A stretch of 31,468 nucleotides of DNA from a virus, in the IMG/VR virus record IMGVR_UViG_3300036772_000283, positions 1 to 31,468 of that record, one strand, 5' to 3'. The notes under the pieces were generated by a model. The model was given only the letters and a program-made list of their open reading frames with translations, did not search any database and was not told where the DNA came from. A program made the position numbers and the translations under genes. Of this stretch, positions 21,937-28,855 are shown piece by piece. Each line of letters starts with the position of its first letter. The first letter of the stretch is position 1.

Positions 21937-23562
21937 ATGCCCCCACCTGGCGGTAGTCGCGCAGCGATAAATGTGTCGTATGGCTGGGGCCAAGTCGGCA
22001 ATCTCTCCGGCGGTCAGGACGTCACGCAGCAGTTCGCGGATCAGTTCCAGCCGGGCTCGGCGCTTTTCGCGCCATCCTTTCCGCTGGCGCCGGTCGAGCC
22101 TGAGCGAGTTCGGCTGTGGGACTACCCGGTCGGTTACAACTACATCTACACGCCGCGCTCCTATGAGCCGGTTACATTCGCCGAATTACGCGCTCTGGCC
22201 AACGCCGAAAATCTGACGCGGATGGCGATCGAGACCCGCAAGGACCAGCTCGAGGCGGTCGAGTGGCAAATCAAGCCAATCGATGAGAAGAAGGCCGCGA
22301 GCGACGCGCCGGCTCGGATCAAGACCGTCACGCAATTCTGGCGGCATCCCGATGGAGAGCGGCCCTTTGCGGTATGGCTGCGCGAACTCCTCGAGGATGT
22401 GATGGTCATCGATGCCCCATGCCTGGAGGTATTGAAGAACCGCGACGGTTCTCTGCGAGGTCTCGATGTGGTCGACGGATCGACGATCAAATTGCTGATC
22501 GATATTACGGGACGGCGGCCGACAGCGCCGGCACCAGCATACGAGCAGATCATTCACGGTCGGCCTTGGCGTTTATTGACGAGCGATGAGTTAATTTACC
22601 GGCCGCGCAACAAGCGCCCGGGGCACATCTACGGATATTCGCCGGTCGAGCAGATCATTCTGCATGTCAATATCGCGATCCGTCGACAGATCATGCAACT
22701 GAACCATTTCACCGAGGGCAATGTGCCTGCGGGGTTCATCGGCATACCGGATCTGAACCCTGAGCAGGTTGCCAAGATCGCGCAATGGTGGAACGATCTT
22801 CTCGCGGGCAACCTCGCGGAACGCACGCGCACGCAATTCCTGCCGTATTCGGCCAAGTATCAATCGCTCAAGGAGCCGCCGCTCAAAGACGATTTCGACG
22901 AGTGGTTGGCGCGCGTGGTGATGTTTTGCTTCTCGCTGCCGCCCGATGCGTTCACCAGGCAGCGGAACCGGTCGACCTCCGAAACCGCGCGGCAGACCGC
23001 TCGCGAAGAAGGCTATGCGCCGCTGTTGGGGTGGGTCAAGCGGTTGGCCGATGAGGTCATCCAGAAGCGCATGGGACACCCGGATCTTGAATTCGCGTGG
23101 GAAGAACTGCGCGAGGTCGATCCGCAAGTGCAAGGTAAGATCGAGACCGACTATGTAAGGTTCGGGGTCAAGACACCGAACGAGGCCCGGGATGGGTTGG
23201 GGTTGGAGCCGATCAAGGGCGGCGAGAAACCGATTGTGATCGCGGGCGCGACGATCGTGCTATTGCAGGATATCGAGGCGCTGTCGGATAAGGCGGTTAA
23301 TCCGCCAGAGCCGATGGTTGGTGCGCCGATGGGTCAGAGCAATGGGGCTGGTCGGGGCGGAGCAATGCCTAGCGGACGTGGCGCAGGCGGACGCGGAGAT
23401 GCCTCGGCCGGCGATAATCGCTCCCGGCCCACAGCGAAGCCCGCTGGTGCGCAGAACGGCTCGGCGGCGGACACGCGCAAGGTGGCCCTCGAACGCGAGG
23501 CCAGGCAGCTTCTGCGGCGGAGCCGGGCTGCTCCTGTAGAGGGGGTTCTAGCGTTGCGTTGA
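21937..23562 (+). CDS. phage portal protein
   Basis: 541 residues. The core has the portal order: YNYIYTPRSYEPVTFAELRA, EWQIKPIDEK, LEDVMVIDAPCLEVLKNRDG, DGSTIKLLID, YSPVEQIILHVNIAIRRQI and DDFDEWLARVVMFCFSLPPD, followed by TARQTAREEGYAPLLGWVKR. It forms the dodecameric DNA channel at one capsid vertex and binds TerL. The C-terminal 100 residues (from about 440) are Gly/Arg/Ala-rich and disordered, ending EREARQLLRRSRA. The ribosome site (AGAGG, 14 bases before ATG) is distant. Confidence 0.9.
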   Translation: MPPPGGSRAAINVSYGWGQVGNLSGGQDVTQQFADQFQPGSALFAPSFPLAPVEPERVRLWDYPVGYNYIYTPRSYEPVTFAELRALANAENLTRMAIETRKDQLEAVEWQIKPIDEKKAASDAPARIKTVTQFWRHPDGERPFAVWLRELLEDVMVIDAPCLEVLKNRDGSLRGLDVVDGSTIKLLIDITGRRPTAPAPAYEQIIHGRPWRLLTSDELIYRPRNKRPGHIYGYSPVEQIILHVNIAIRRQIMQLNHFTEGNVPAGFIGIPDLNPEQVAKIAQWWNDLLAGNLAERTRTQFLPYSAKYQSLKEPPLKDDFDEWLARVVMFCFSLPPDAFTRQRNRSTSETARQTAREEGYAPLLGWVKRLADEVIQKRMGHPDLEFAWEELREVDPQVQGKIETDYVRFGVKTPNEARDGLGLEPIKGGEKPIVIAGATIVLLQDIEALSDKAVNPPEPMVGAPMGQSNGAGRGGAMPSGRGAGGRGDASAGDNRSRPTAKPAGAQNGSAADTRKVALEREARQLLRRSRAAPVEGVLALR

Positions 23563-23589: not shown

Positions 23590-24348
23590 ATGCAGCCGGA
23601 TGAATTGACTCCCATCGAGCAGCACGGGAATGTCTGGCTAAAGCGGGACGATCTATTCGAGTATAACGGCTGTGCTGGCGGCAAGGTCAGAACCTGTCTG
23701 ATGCTCGCCATGAAAGCCAAGGAACGAGGCATCGAAGGGCTGACAACCGCGGTCTCGCGCGATTCTCCGCAGGGCAAGATAGTGGCCACAGTAGCTCGCT
23801 CATTGGGCATGAGAGCGCGCTGCCATATCCCAAAAGTCAAGGTGCTGTGGGACAAGATAGCAAAAGCGCAAGAGCTTGGCGCAGAGCTGATCCCCCATCA
23901 GCCGTGCTACAATACCGCTCTGCGGGCGTGGTCTAAACAAGACGCGGACAGGCTCAAGTGGTTTGACATTCCATTCGGAATGGAGAGCGAGGAGGCGATA
24001 AGCCAGAACGCCAATCAAGTTAGAAACGTCCCGCGATCTGTCAGTCGCATCGTTATTCCCGTCGGATCTGGCATCACCGCAGCTGGCGTGCTTCATGGAT
24101 TGCAGCGGTTTAGCGTGGATGTTCCGGTGCTTGGCGTCGCGGTTGGCGCCAATAGAGAAAAGACACTGGATAAATGGGCGCCACTGTTTGGTTGGCGTCG
24201 TATGATGACATTAATACATGCACCGGAAGATTACCATGATCCGGTAGACGTGTCGATTGGGGGCATAAAACTGGATGAGATTTACGAAGCTAAGGCCGCG
24301 CGTTACTTGCGTCCGAACGACTTGCTTTGGATAGTGGGGACGCGCTGA
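23590..24348 (+). CDS. PLP-dependent enzyme, fold type II (ACC deaminase/D-cysteine desulfhydrase-like)
   Basis: 252 residues. WLKRDDLFEYNGCAGGKVRT (16-35) matches the conserved KRDDL...GGNKVRK segment of this family, placing the Schiff-base lysine at K32. SRDSPQGKIVATVARSLGMR occupies the usual substrate-carboxylate loop (normally SNHxxA), and IVIPVGSGITAAGVLHG is the phosphate-binding glycine loop. The protein is about 70-80 residues shorter than the bacterial enzymes and lacks the SNH triad, so the substrate is probably different. TGATG couples it to a DNA methyltransferase-like gene: a role in base hypermodification is the most interesting reading, but unproven. Confidence 0.75.
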   Translation: MQPDELTPIEQHGNVWLKRDDLFEYNGCAGGKVRTCLMLAMKAKERGIEGLTTAVSRDSPQGKIVATVARSLGMRARCHIPKVKVLWDKIAKAQELGAELIPHQPCYNTALRAWSKQDADRLKWFDIPFGMESEEAISQNANQVRNVPRSVSRIVIPVGSGITAAGVLHGLQRFSVDVPVLGVAVGANREKTLDKWAPLFGWRRMMTLIHAPEDYHDPVDVSIGGIKLDEIYEAKAARYLRPNDLLWIVGTR

Positions 24349-25328
24349 TGCCTCTGCCCGATCGGCGCGACCAACGCGCTCGCCCGTCTCGGAAGACTAC
24401 CGGCAAACTGTCGGAACTGTTCGGCATCCCGCCGTTTTCATTTTTCGATAGCCGGTCTCTTTGGTGGCAGAGCCGCAAGGCACAATGGTTCGCTACCGGG
24501 ATTAAAGGGGAGAATGGCCGCGGGGAGAATGGCCGCGCTGCGCCTGGCGGTGCTGGCAAGACCAGCGTGCTGTACCAGATCGATGCCTATTCCGATGACG
24601 GTATTATCACATCGGGTTTCGATCCTGTTCTCAGTGAGATAGTTTATCGTTGGTTTAGTCCTCCAGGAGGCTTGATCCTTGATCCGTTCTCTGGCGGCTC
24701 AACCCGCGGCATAGTGGCGAGCAAATGCGGTCGTGATTATGTGGGAATTGATCTCCGGCCGGAACAAATTCAGGCTAATCGCGAGCAGGCAGAGCGCATC
24801 TGTGACGAGCCGATGCCGAAATGGCTGGTTGGGGATAGCTCGAGGCTGGCTGATATTGTAGGCTCGATCGAGGCTGACTTTATCTTCACTTCTCCGCCAT
24901 ACGCAGGGCTTGAGCGCTATAGTGATGATGGGCGCGATCTATCGACGATGGACTATGAGACGTTTATAGTCGCCTATCGCGAGATCATCGCCAACGTGCT
25001 TTCGTTGTTGAAGCCGAACCGGTTTGCCTGTTTCATCGTCGGCGACAAGCGAGCAAAGGACGGGAATTACATCGGCCTGCCGTGGCGGACTGTAGAGGCG
25101 TTTGAGACGTTCGGCAGCAGGTTATACAACGAGGCAGTATTGATAACGCCGCCGGGATCTGTGCCGATCCGTATGCGTAAGCAGTTTGAGATGAGTCGGA
25201 AGTTCGGCAAGACGCACCAGAACGTGCTGGTTTTCGTCAAGGGCGATCCTCGCGAGGCTGCCTTGGCCATCGGCGCGCCGGAATTTCACCTGCCCAGCAT
25301 GGAGGATGATTTATTCTCGACTGCGTAA
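24348..25328 (+). CDS. DNA methyltransferase-like modification protein
   Basis: 326 residues from ATG 24348. An N-terminal region (LSELFGIPPFSFFDSRSLWW, QSRKAQWFATGIK) precedes SAM motif I LILDPFSGGSTRGI and VGIDLRPEQIQANREQA; the catalytic motif is FIFTSPPYAGLERYSDDGRD, and the end VPIRMRKQFEMSRKFGKTHQ, NVLVFVKGD is typical of a phage family of N4/N6 enzymes usually annotated as DNA modification methylase. Order I before IV is the alpha/gamma type, unlike the methyltransferase at 13162. A 15-base perfect tandem repeat (24507-24536) gives GENGRGENGR. Translationally coupled to the PLP enzyme. Confidence 0.8.
   Translation: MPLPDRRDQRARPSRKTTGKLSELFGIPPFSFFDSRSLWWQSRKAQWFATGIKGENGRGENGRAAPGGAGKTSVLYQIDAYSDDGIITSGFDPVLSEIVYRWFSPPGGLILDPFSGGSTRGIVASKCGRDYVGIDLRPEQIQANREQAERICDEPMPKWLVGDSSRLADIVGSIEADFIFTSPPYAGLERYSDDGRDLSTMDYETFIVAYREIIANVLSLLKPNRFACFIVGDKRAKDGNYIGLPWRTVEAFETFGSRLYNEAVLITPPGSVPIRMRKQFEMSRKFGKTHQNVLVFVKGDPREAALAIGAPEFHLPSMEDDLFSTA
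24507..24536. repeat. 15-base tandem repeat inside the methyltransferase gene
   Basis: GGGGAGAATGGCCGC occurs twice head to tail, preserving the frame and adding five residues (GENGR twice). It looks like a recent slippage event. Confidence 0.9.
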
Positions 25329-25473: not shown

Positions 25474-26007
25474 ATGAGAGCTCGGTTACGCAGTGCGCCC
25501 GGGCGCAACGTAGCGAAGATGCAAGCCGCCGAGCAGCGGTTGACAGAGAGGCTCGCCAGCTTCTTCGCCGCGACCGCGCAAGACGTATCGAGACAGATCT
25601 CCGTACACTTGGGGCATAACCTAGTCGGCAAGGGAAGCGATCACGCTAGTCCGGACCTCCACGTAAAGCCGGAGAACGCGATCCCGATTGACCTCCCTTC
25701 GGTCGACGTCGTCACTCAGGCGAATGTCCAGCATGTCAGCTGGGAGTTGGTGCGCGAAGGTCAGACGCAAACTACGCGGCGAAAGATCGCCATCGCCGAC
25801 CTGATCGCAACGCAGAAAGTGGTCGACCGTGAGCGTCTCGTGAAGCACATGGAGCAGCTGCGCGAGACCGGAGAACTCGACGAGAAATGGCCCCCCCTGG
25901 TATTGCGGTGGGATGGCGATTTTTTCTTGCTCTCCGGGCATCACGGCACGGTTGCGGCCAAAAGCCTCGGGTGGACCGAGATTCCGGCCGATGTTATGAT
26001 GGCCTGA
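25474..26007 (+). CDS. MuF-like N terminus fused to a ParB-like domain
   Basis: 177 residues. Residues 1-45 (AKMQAAEQRLTERLASFFAA, then TAQDVSRQIS) look like the N-terminal helix of SPP1 gp7/Mu F minor head proteins. A ParB/Srx-like domain follows from about 95 to 177: IAIADLIATQKVVDRERLVK and PPLVLRWDGDFFLLSGHHGT with AAKSLGWTEIPADV; the usual DGHHR is SGHHG here. The MuF core domain itself is absent and appears 2.2 kb downstream (28295). MuF-ParB fusions are known among phage polyvalent proteins. The gene stops at TGATCA, shared with the convergent minus gene. Confidence 0.65.
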   Translation: MRARLRSAPGRNVAKMQAAEQRLTERLASFFAATAQDVSRQISVHLGHNLVGKGSDHASPDLHVKPENAIPIDLPSVDVVTQANVQHVSWELVREGQTQTTRRKIAIADLIATQKVVDRERLVKHMEQLRETGELDEKWPPLVLRWDGDFFLLSGHHGTVAAKSLGWTEIPADVMMA

Positions 26008-28294: not shown

Positions 28295-28855
28295 GTGTTG
28301 GTTGACCCTACGGAGGGAGAGCTGTCGGTGATCTACGCCGACGGTCTAAGCACGGGACTGCCGTTGGTCGGCTTGGACGTCAATCTCGACCAGGCCAACG
28401 AGCGCTCTGTCAACTGGGCCCGCGATAGAGCCGCGAGCCTCGTCACGCAGATCGAGGAAAACACCCGCGACATGTTGCGGGACACGGTCGCCCGGGCAAT
28501 CGAGGAAGGCTGGTCGGCGGACGAACTGGCGCAAGAGATTGCCGGATCCATCGGGTTCAGCGACGAGCGGGCGCAAACGATAGCTCGGACCGAAATCATC
28601 GCGGCTAACAACCAAGGCAACCTCGCGGCATACAAGGACGCGGCGAGCCAAGGCATTGCGATGCAAAAGGAATGGATCACTGCCGGTGACGATCTGGTCT
28701 CGGAAGACTGCGCAGAAAACGAGGATGCGGGAGCGATCGACGTAAATGATGATTTTCCTTCTGGAGATGACGCTCCGCCTGCTCATCCAAATTGTCGCTG
28801 CGCTGTGGCTCCGGTGGTGAGTGACGAATCCGACGATCAGGACAGCTCTGAATGA
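28295..28855 (+). CDS. MuF core domain (minor head/morphogenesis protein), N-terminally truncated
   Basis: 186 residues from GTG 28295, the first possible start. The MuF/SPP1 gp7 hallmarks are ERAQTIARTEIIAANNQGNL, EWITAGDDLVSEDCAENEDA, DFPSGDDAPPAHPNCRCAV. The same frame is open back to 28160 and still reads protein-like sequence (DDIHYHRADAILTQVDLGDW) from about 28232, with no ATG, GTG or TTG before 28295. So the true N terminus was probably supplied by the fragment at 25474, and the gene has been split. It may still be made from the GTG as a shortened minor head protein. Confidence 0.75.
   Translation: MLVDPTEGELSVIYADGLSTGLPLVGLDVNLDQANERSVNWARDRAASLVTQIEENTRDMLRDTVARAIEEGWSADELAQEIAGSIGFSDERAQTIARTEIIAANNQGNLAAYKDAASQGIAMQKEWITAGDDLVSEDCAENEDAGAIDVNDDFPSGDDAPPAHPNCRCAVAPVVSDESDDQDSSE

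Follow-up and report, generated by a model that had tools for sequence, protein, structure and literature searches.

One of the closest described systems can be found in Synechococcus phage S-B43, where CmoA makes carboxy-SAM for CmoX as part of a 5-carboxymethylcytosine system (PMC12783734). In this CmoA/CmoX/CmoY system a phage DNA methyltransferase homologue, which often has a ParB neighbour, transfers a handle that is not a methyl group, and a further enzyme tailors the transferred group.

A different set of related enzymes occurs in phages that hypermodify thymidine. Lee et al. (2021, NAR) are said to have described PLP-dependent decarboxylases that trim the amino acids attached to 5-hmdU, and the PLP enzymes of phages ViI and M6 that are related to the one discussed below are ones we take to be decarboxylases. 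For the Ackermannviridae, the conserved genes of 5-hmdU transformation are listed as including a PLP enzyme (PMC6336734), and the SN1/M6 cassette has one as well (PMC9476957).

The locus described here couples a PLP enzyme to a SAM-dependent transferase. Judged from sequence comparison, the pair very probably forms a phage module for DNA-base hypermodification. It lies in a virus record of 31,468 bases (the window). Two genes on the plus strand, P0001 (252 aa, 23590-24348) and P0002 (326 aa, 24348-25328), overlap as TGATG, just as the initial annotation had read them. The same annotation placed the pair between portal and MuF genes, and this placement holds: the flanking genes (21937-23562 and 28295-28855) both match the portal-MuF profile phrog_2662. 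The promoter that it suspected at the portal end was not borne out. No sigma-70-like promoter was found there, and the single match obtained, inside the methyltransferase gene, is no more than chance would give.

The interval from portal to MuF holds about 4.7 kb of cargo, comprising the PLP gene, the transferase, a ParB-like ORF and others. The ParB-like ORF (25474..26007, plus strand) is a putative separate protein with weak support only (Pfam ParBc_2 E 0.0054, under the cut-off; phrog ParB-like E 0.0055-0.006). Elsewhere in the window, P0003 (13162-14391) is a DNA methyltransferase of another type (phrog_67; N6_N4_Mtase E 2.2e-35), and counting it the phage may carry two DNA-modifying enzymes. 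At the contig end (29799-31127) there is a protein of 442 aa that carries TPR repeats and whose C-terminal part has no known function.

P0001 (23590..24348, plus strand) is assigned to the SPQ subfamily of fold-type II PLP enzymes from Pfam, an AlphaFold2 model and a PDB fold match. It is a member of the PALP family (PF00291, E 4.3e-15, 56.3 bits against a curated cut-off of 35), and its model has the type II fold with a mean pLDDT of 96.1. The nearest solved fold is 1j0a, an ACC-deaminase homologue (Z 24.2; 249 residues superposed at 2.5 A); for D-cysteine desulfhydrase, Z is about 23.8. The nearest folds, among them D-cysteine desulfhydrase, ACC deaminase and TrpB, are those of elimination and replacement enzymes. 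ACC deaminase and D-cysteine desulfhydrase share with P0001 a common fold (Z 22-24) and the position of the Schiff-base lysine. However, identity in the structural alignment is only 21-26%, and P0001 has 252 residues and an SPQ loop where these enzymes have about 325-340 residues. Membership of TIGR01275 (ACC deaminase/D-cysteine desulfhydrase) was rejected at 44 bits against a curated cut-off of 289.4, and the Ser-Asn-Gln/His catalytic loop of those enzymes is likewise missing from P0001, being replaced by Ser59-Pro60-Gln61.

The residues expected of a PLP enzyme are in place. Lys32 (codon 23683..23685, plus strand), the predicted Schiff-base lysine, is K in 190 of 192 relatives and a gap in the other 2. 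The predicted phosphate loop Gly159-Ser160-Gly161 (24064..24072, plus strand) is kept in 192, 189 and 187 of the 192, respectively. In the motif Tyr232-Glu233-Ala234-Lys235 (24283..24294, plus strand), the tyrosine and lysine occur in all 192 and position 233 is E or D. With the PALP and fold matches, these residues bear out the initial annotation, which had called the protein ACC-deaminase/D-cysteine-desulfhydrase-like, with K32 and a phosphate loop. It had also read the substrate loop as PQGK in place of SNH. The loop does diverge, but the place of the cellular Ser-Asn-His/Gln is better assigned to Ser59-Pro60-Gln61 (23764..23772, plus strand), a substrate/cofactor loop typical of the subfamily. 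Relative to the Ser-Asn-His of cellular D-cysteine desulfhydrase, the serine is retained and the asparagine has become proline.

Among 192 PLP domains, two loop types can be distinguished: Ser-Pro-Gln, found in the window and in phages Pam4, Vincenzo and ViI, and a Gly/Ala-rich type with YDAK. The equivalent of Ser59 is S in 77 of the 192, and the Gly/Ala-type loop occurs in more than half. The family includes orf00226/Vi01_182 of Salmonella phage ViI (Vi01), MONT_41 of Glutamicibacter phage Montesquieu and, at a greater distance, the M6-like SN1_023. These belong to the same fold-II family as P0001, share the invariant residues R19, D21, K32, S160, Y232 and K235, and like P0001 stand in a phage DNA-modification gene context. 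Their partners differ: the PLP enzymes of ViI, M6 and Montesquieu accompany 5-hmdU kinases and aGPT-PPlase-type transferases acting on thymidine, whereas P0001 accompanies a SAM-dependent transferase. The Montesquieu gene sits in a thymidine-hypermodification operon without a transferase of the P0002 type as neighbour. In the window, none of the proteins examined was recognised as the product of an hmdU gene.

In a rooted tree of the PLP enzymes, from which two outgroup rows in wrong reading frames (L188 and L194) were left out, there are three phage clades, and that of the window is a separate third one (91/92). The transferase-linked enzyme of Vincenzo groups with those of ViI and Montesquieu (99/89). 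The SN1 (M6-like) enzyme groups with the second loop type (99/96), on a long branch that makes its placement unsure.

P0002 (24348..25328, plus strand; 326 aa) is a SAM-dependent DNA transferase with a methyltransferase fold, assigned from Pfam, phrog and an AF2 model. It matches N6_N4_Mtase (PF01555, E 2.1e-18) and phrog_12517 (E 5.9e-95, residues 16-309), and the model (pLDDT 83) is a Rossmann methyltransferase. Since the best structural matches are the tRNA guanine-N2 methyltransferases aTrm11 and TrmN (Z 18-19), the fold does not tell which base is the target. The initial annotation had pointed out a SAM motif I and TSPPYAG, and both are present. The first is DPFSGG at residues 112-117, within the ten residues DPFSGGSTRG at 112-121 (24681..24710, plus strand; Arg120 at 24705-24707). 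The second spans residues 181-187 and contains the predicted catalytic motif IV, SPPY (182-185; 24891..24902, plus strand).

P0002 is a clear member of the ParB-linked phage DNA methyltransferases (phrog_12517, phrog_498), with which it has the PPF...W...RK linker and the PPY motif in common. Where these are mostly annotated as plain adenine methyltransferases, P0002 is coupled to a PLP enzyme; it has no fused ParB domain and carries SPPYAG instead of CPPYAD. Nearly all relatives have CPPYAD or something similar, and the cysteine of CPPY is present in 219 of 221 rows without a SAM-decarboxylase link. Residues 17-58 (24396..24521, plus strand; phrog_15396 "ParB-like" match at 18-66, alignment A1) correspond to the linker that in relatives leads from an N-terminal ParB domain to the transferase; the fused domain itself is absent from P0002, which begins at the linker. 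Within this linker, at 24507-24537, a 15-base unit (GGGGAGAATGGCCGC) is duplicated perfectly in tandem, which gives ENGRGENGR in the protein. With SPPYAG, a missing ParB domain and a duplication in the linker, the window transferase may be a copy that is degenerating or one that has become specialised.

Compared with CmoX, a C5-cytosine enzyme that uses carboxy-SAM and carries SPPC, P0002 is of the N6/N4 type with PPY. CmoX was rejected as the parent of P0002 on this motif (SPPC against SPPY). No CmoX structure is among the sequence or fold matches listed for P0002, which does not by itself exclude such parentage. No CmoA-like protein was recognised among the window ORFs scanned, which were a part of the ORFs in a record that may be a fragment.

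Evidence that the two enzymes belong together can be provided by observing how often, and in what arrangements, they occur side by side. Searching with P0001 alone by tblastn gave 12 phage records; a single-protein scan of IMG/VR with it gave no matches, its peptide patterns being too specific. The PLP-side scans were therefore queried with subfamily alignments of the SPQ type and of the second type, a mixed PLP alignment being too diverse as a query. Without any transferase information, they returned 160 viral loci (80 of each type). By the criterion of the initial annotation itself, its reading would have failed had the PLP homologues come largely from outside phages without ever adjoining the methyltransferase. 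What was seen is the reverse: the transferase stands beside the PLP enzyme, is fused to it or is interrupted by it in 147 of the 160 viral loci. For the second type it is present in 78 of 80, with 75 directly downstream, and for the SPQ type in 69 of 80 (33 inserted, 12 end-fused, 16 adjacent and 8 further off). Downstream neighbours number 84, and in 67 of them the overlap with the transferase is exactly 4 nt.

The 33 insertions occupy essentially one site, which falls after SAM motif I and before the PPY motif, at about residue 156 in P0002 numbering. In P0002, the equivalent site falls at about residues 155-157 (24810..24818, plus strand), and in nearly all 33 insertions it lies at profile position 273-278. 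An example can be found in Pseudanabaena phage Pam4, where a single protein of 829 aa consists of ParB, the first half of the transferase, the PLP enzyme and the second half of the transferase. Erythrobacter phage ZS04 has the same kind of insertion with a more divergent PLP domain, and in R6L the split match pattern suggests a similar one. Mycobacterium phage Vincenzo and Microcystis phage Mae-JY30 have a transferase gene followed by a PLP gene. In a literature search, the pairing and the domain insertion were nowhere described, although an earlier mention in Iyer et al. 2013 or Lee et al. 2018/2021 is not excluded.

Starting instead from an alignment of the transferase, a scan of IMG/VR and GTDB genomes found a PLP gene or domain in 53 of 160 loci, on viral contigs and in prophages. 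This is a lower bound, as the flanks in these collections are short and the PLP-less loci were not restricted to long ones. The loci are not independent samples, and some contigs are near-copies of one another. On the transferase tree (264 rows, less than 90% identity within a label), parsimony counts 43 changes of the PLP label, at least 11 of them on well supported branches, so gains or losses of the PLP link have happened many times. PLP-linked and PLP-less transferases do not differ in motif I (DPFAGGSVRG) or motif IV (CPPY), and thus show no difference that would point to a changed donor.

Some loci show other arrangements. In three loci without a PLP gene (L056, L060 and L096), the transferase is closely followed by a QueC-like PP-loop ATPase, possibly another tailoring partner; its Pfam E is 3.8e-05 in L056 and 0.002 in L096. 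SPQ-type PLP genes also occur on large-phage contigs (L211, L229, L241, L249, L259, L272 and L276) with no transferase within the available flank. Their neighbours resemble helicase and polymerase genes, and in L241 a NUDIX gene lies directly upstream.

A sister clade of the transferase has a different partner. In ZRG1 and P2559S, a SAM decarboxylase gene directly follows the transferase gene, and a scan for this type gave 80 loci, of which 73 have a SAM decarboxylase immediately after the transferase and none has a PLP enzyme. In this clade (IMG/VR loci L360-L439; L014 and L015), the transferase is translationally coupled to the SAM decarboxylase in the same 73 of 80, and the self-cleavage motif ESH is present in all 58 SAM decarboxylases retained for the profile. 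Motif I changes with the partner: Arg120 is replaced by Phe and Gly117 by Asp in 43 of 43 SAM-decarboxylase-linked rows, while Arg120 is kept in 122 of 123 PLP-linked rows. Such a change would be expected if the donor had lost its carboxylate, and by this comparison the sister clade may put aminopropyl groups on DNA from decarboxylated SAM. A caution is that for some phage SpeD homologues the substrate is ornithine or arginine and not SAM (PMC10407285). The window transferase was excluded from this clade, having DPFSGGSTRG where the clade has D[CTV]FAGD[ST]VFG; no SAM decarboxylase gene adjoins the pair in the window.

In the initial annotation, the pair was suggested to attach a methyl or an amino-acid-derived group to the DNA of the phage. 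Coupling of the PLP enzyme to the transferase, together with the relatives in thymidine-hypermodifying phages, supports this, with the chemistry remaining inferred. Most likely, the group that the pair puts on the bases of phage DNA bears an amine and is not simply a methyl. That the substrate of the PLP enzyme is attached to DNA is inferred from where its domain is placed within the transferase and from the use of the family on DNA-attached groups in hypermodifying phages; it is on balance the favoured reading, by no great measure. The group proposed is the 3-amino-3-carboxypropyl (acp) part of SAM, because a SAM-dependent transferase has no other amino acid to supply by itself. Donation of aminocarboxypropyl groups by SAM is known (PMC10491745). 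That the attached group is acp and that the PLP enzyme decarboxylates it can only be inferred tentatively.

In the proposed mechanism, the transferase would reach DNA, in most relatives via its ParB domain, with SAM bound at motif I. It would then flip out a base and modify it through the PPY motif, moving acp to the base instead of, or besides, a methyl. The acceptor would probably be an exocyclic amine, judged from the PPY motif. The PLP enzyme would next form a Schiff base with the DNA-attached amino acid and decarboxylate it. The result would be an aminopropyl base, positively charged and resistant to host nucleases. In the sister clade the order would be reversed, with SAM decarboxylated first and aminopropyl then transferred, giving the same product. 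As a whole, a hypermodification module working by acp transfer and subsequent decarboxylation is the best explanation available, though it falls a little short of being probable, and there are no activity, product or virion-DNA data for it. What comparison of the genes and proteins does show is that the two genes are coupled, how the families are related, that active-site residues are conserved and that motif I co-varies with the SAM decarboxylase.

Several points count against acp transfer followed by decarboxylation, and other explanations draw on the same evidence. About two thirds of the near transferase relatives have no PLP gene in the available flank and have the same motifs, so plain methylation is possible for the family, and an arginine that holds the carboxylate of SAM is equally suited to methyl transfer. 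The pair could then be an ordinary adenine or cytosine methyltransferase serving anti-restriction, accompanied by a PLP enzyme whose task is to remove or produce some small metabolite of use during infection. P0002 does belong to PF01555, and 107 of 160 transferase loci lack a PLP gene, within short flanks. Yet 33 insertions at one site and 12 end fusions fit poorly with an enzyme of free metabolites, and this explanation is regarded as quite improbable. The insertions also disfavour, without excluding it, the other suggestion of the initial annotation, that the pair removes a limiting metabolite. Insertion between motif I and motif IV admits another interpretation. In alpha-class DNA methyltransferases, the recognition domain lies between these two motifs, and the PLP domain could be a non-catalytic module for specificity or dimerisation that replaces the target-recognition domain. 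However, Lys32, the GSG loop, Tyr232 and Lys235 are retained in nearly all 192 relatives and many copies are separate genes, which leaves a non-catalytic role very improbable.

If the PLP domain is catalytic, its reaction can be read in more than one way. Fold-II enzymes usually catalyse eliminations and replacements, which counts against decarboxylation; the decarboxylase role of the ViI and M6 enzymes itself rests on what Lee et al. are said to have described. Instead, the PLP enzyme might make aminoacrylate from serine or a similar compound and add it to a base that the transferase has methylated or primed. The nearest folds (D-cysteine desulfhydrase, ACC deaminase and TrpB) are of this kind, and Ser59 stands at the position of the serine of the cellular enzymes. 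This serine is not generally needed, because more than half of the family has the Gly/Ala-type loop and S is found in only 77 of 192; the decarboxylase activity attributed to the ViI and M6 relatives also speaks against beta-replacement, for which the chances are again poor. Alternately, the PLP enzyme could act before the transfer, using SAM, or some other free amino acid, to make a modified donor for the transferase, as CmoA does for CmoX. That precedent combines a modified SAM with ParB neighbours (PMC12783734), and the sister clade couples the same type of transferase to SAM decarboxylase. But motif I with Arg120 is unchanged between PLP-linked and PLP-less transferases and altered in the SAM-decarboxylase clade, and the PLP relative of Montesquieu lies in its thymidine-hypermodification operon without such a transferase as neighbour. 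A pre-transfer role is unlikely, though it deserves to be kept in mind. For action on DNA-attached acp, it remains a further difficulty that the window transferase is itself an outlier in motif IV (SPPYAG against CPPYAD).

The component enzymes are of known kinds. Their pairing would extend phage DNA hypermodification by a variant whose chemistry stands a fair chance of being new. It may even represent an undescribed route, a suggestion that is still doubtful, in which a "methyltransferase" moves the amino-acid or aminopropyl part of SAM to a base and has acquired convergent partners, a PLP decarboxylase acting after the transfer or a SAM decarboxylase acting before it. If true, hypermodification would gain a third entry, next to the hydroxymethyl-pyrimidine and carboxymethyl-cytosine routes. 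Phage and prophage genes for transferases of this family usually bear the annotation of an ordinary adenine methyltransferase. Should the PLP enzyme or SAM decarboxylase take part in the reaction, an undescribed amine-bearing DNA base would be present in many phages of Proteobacteria, Bacteroidetes, cyanobacteria and actinobacteria.
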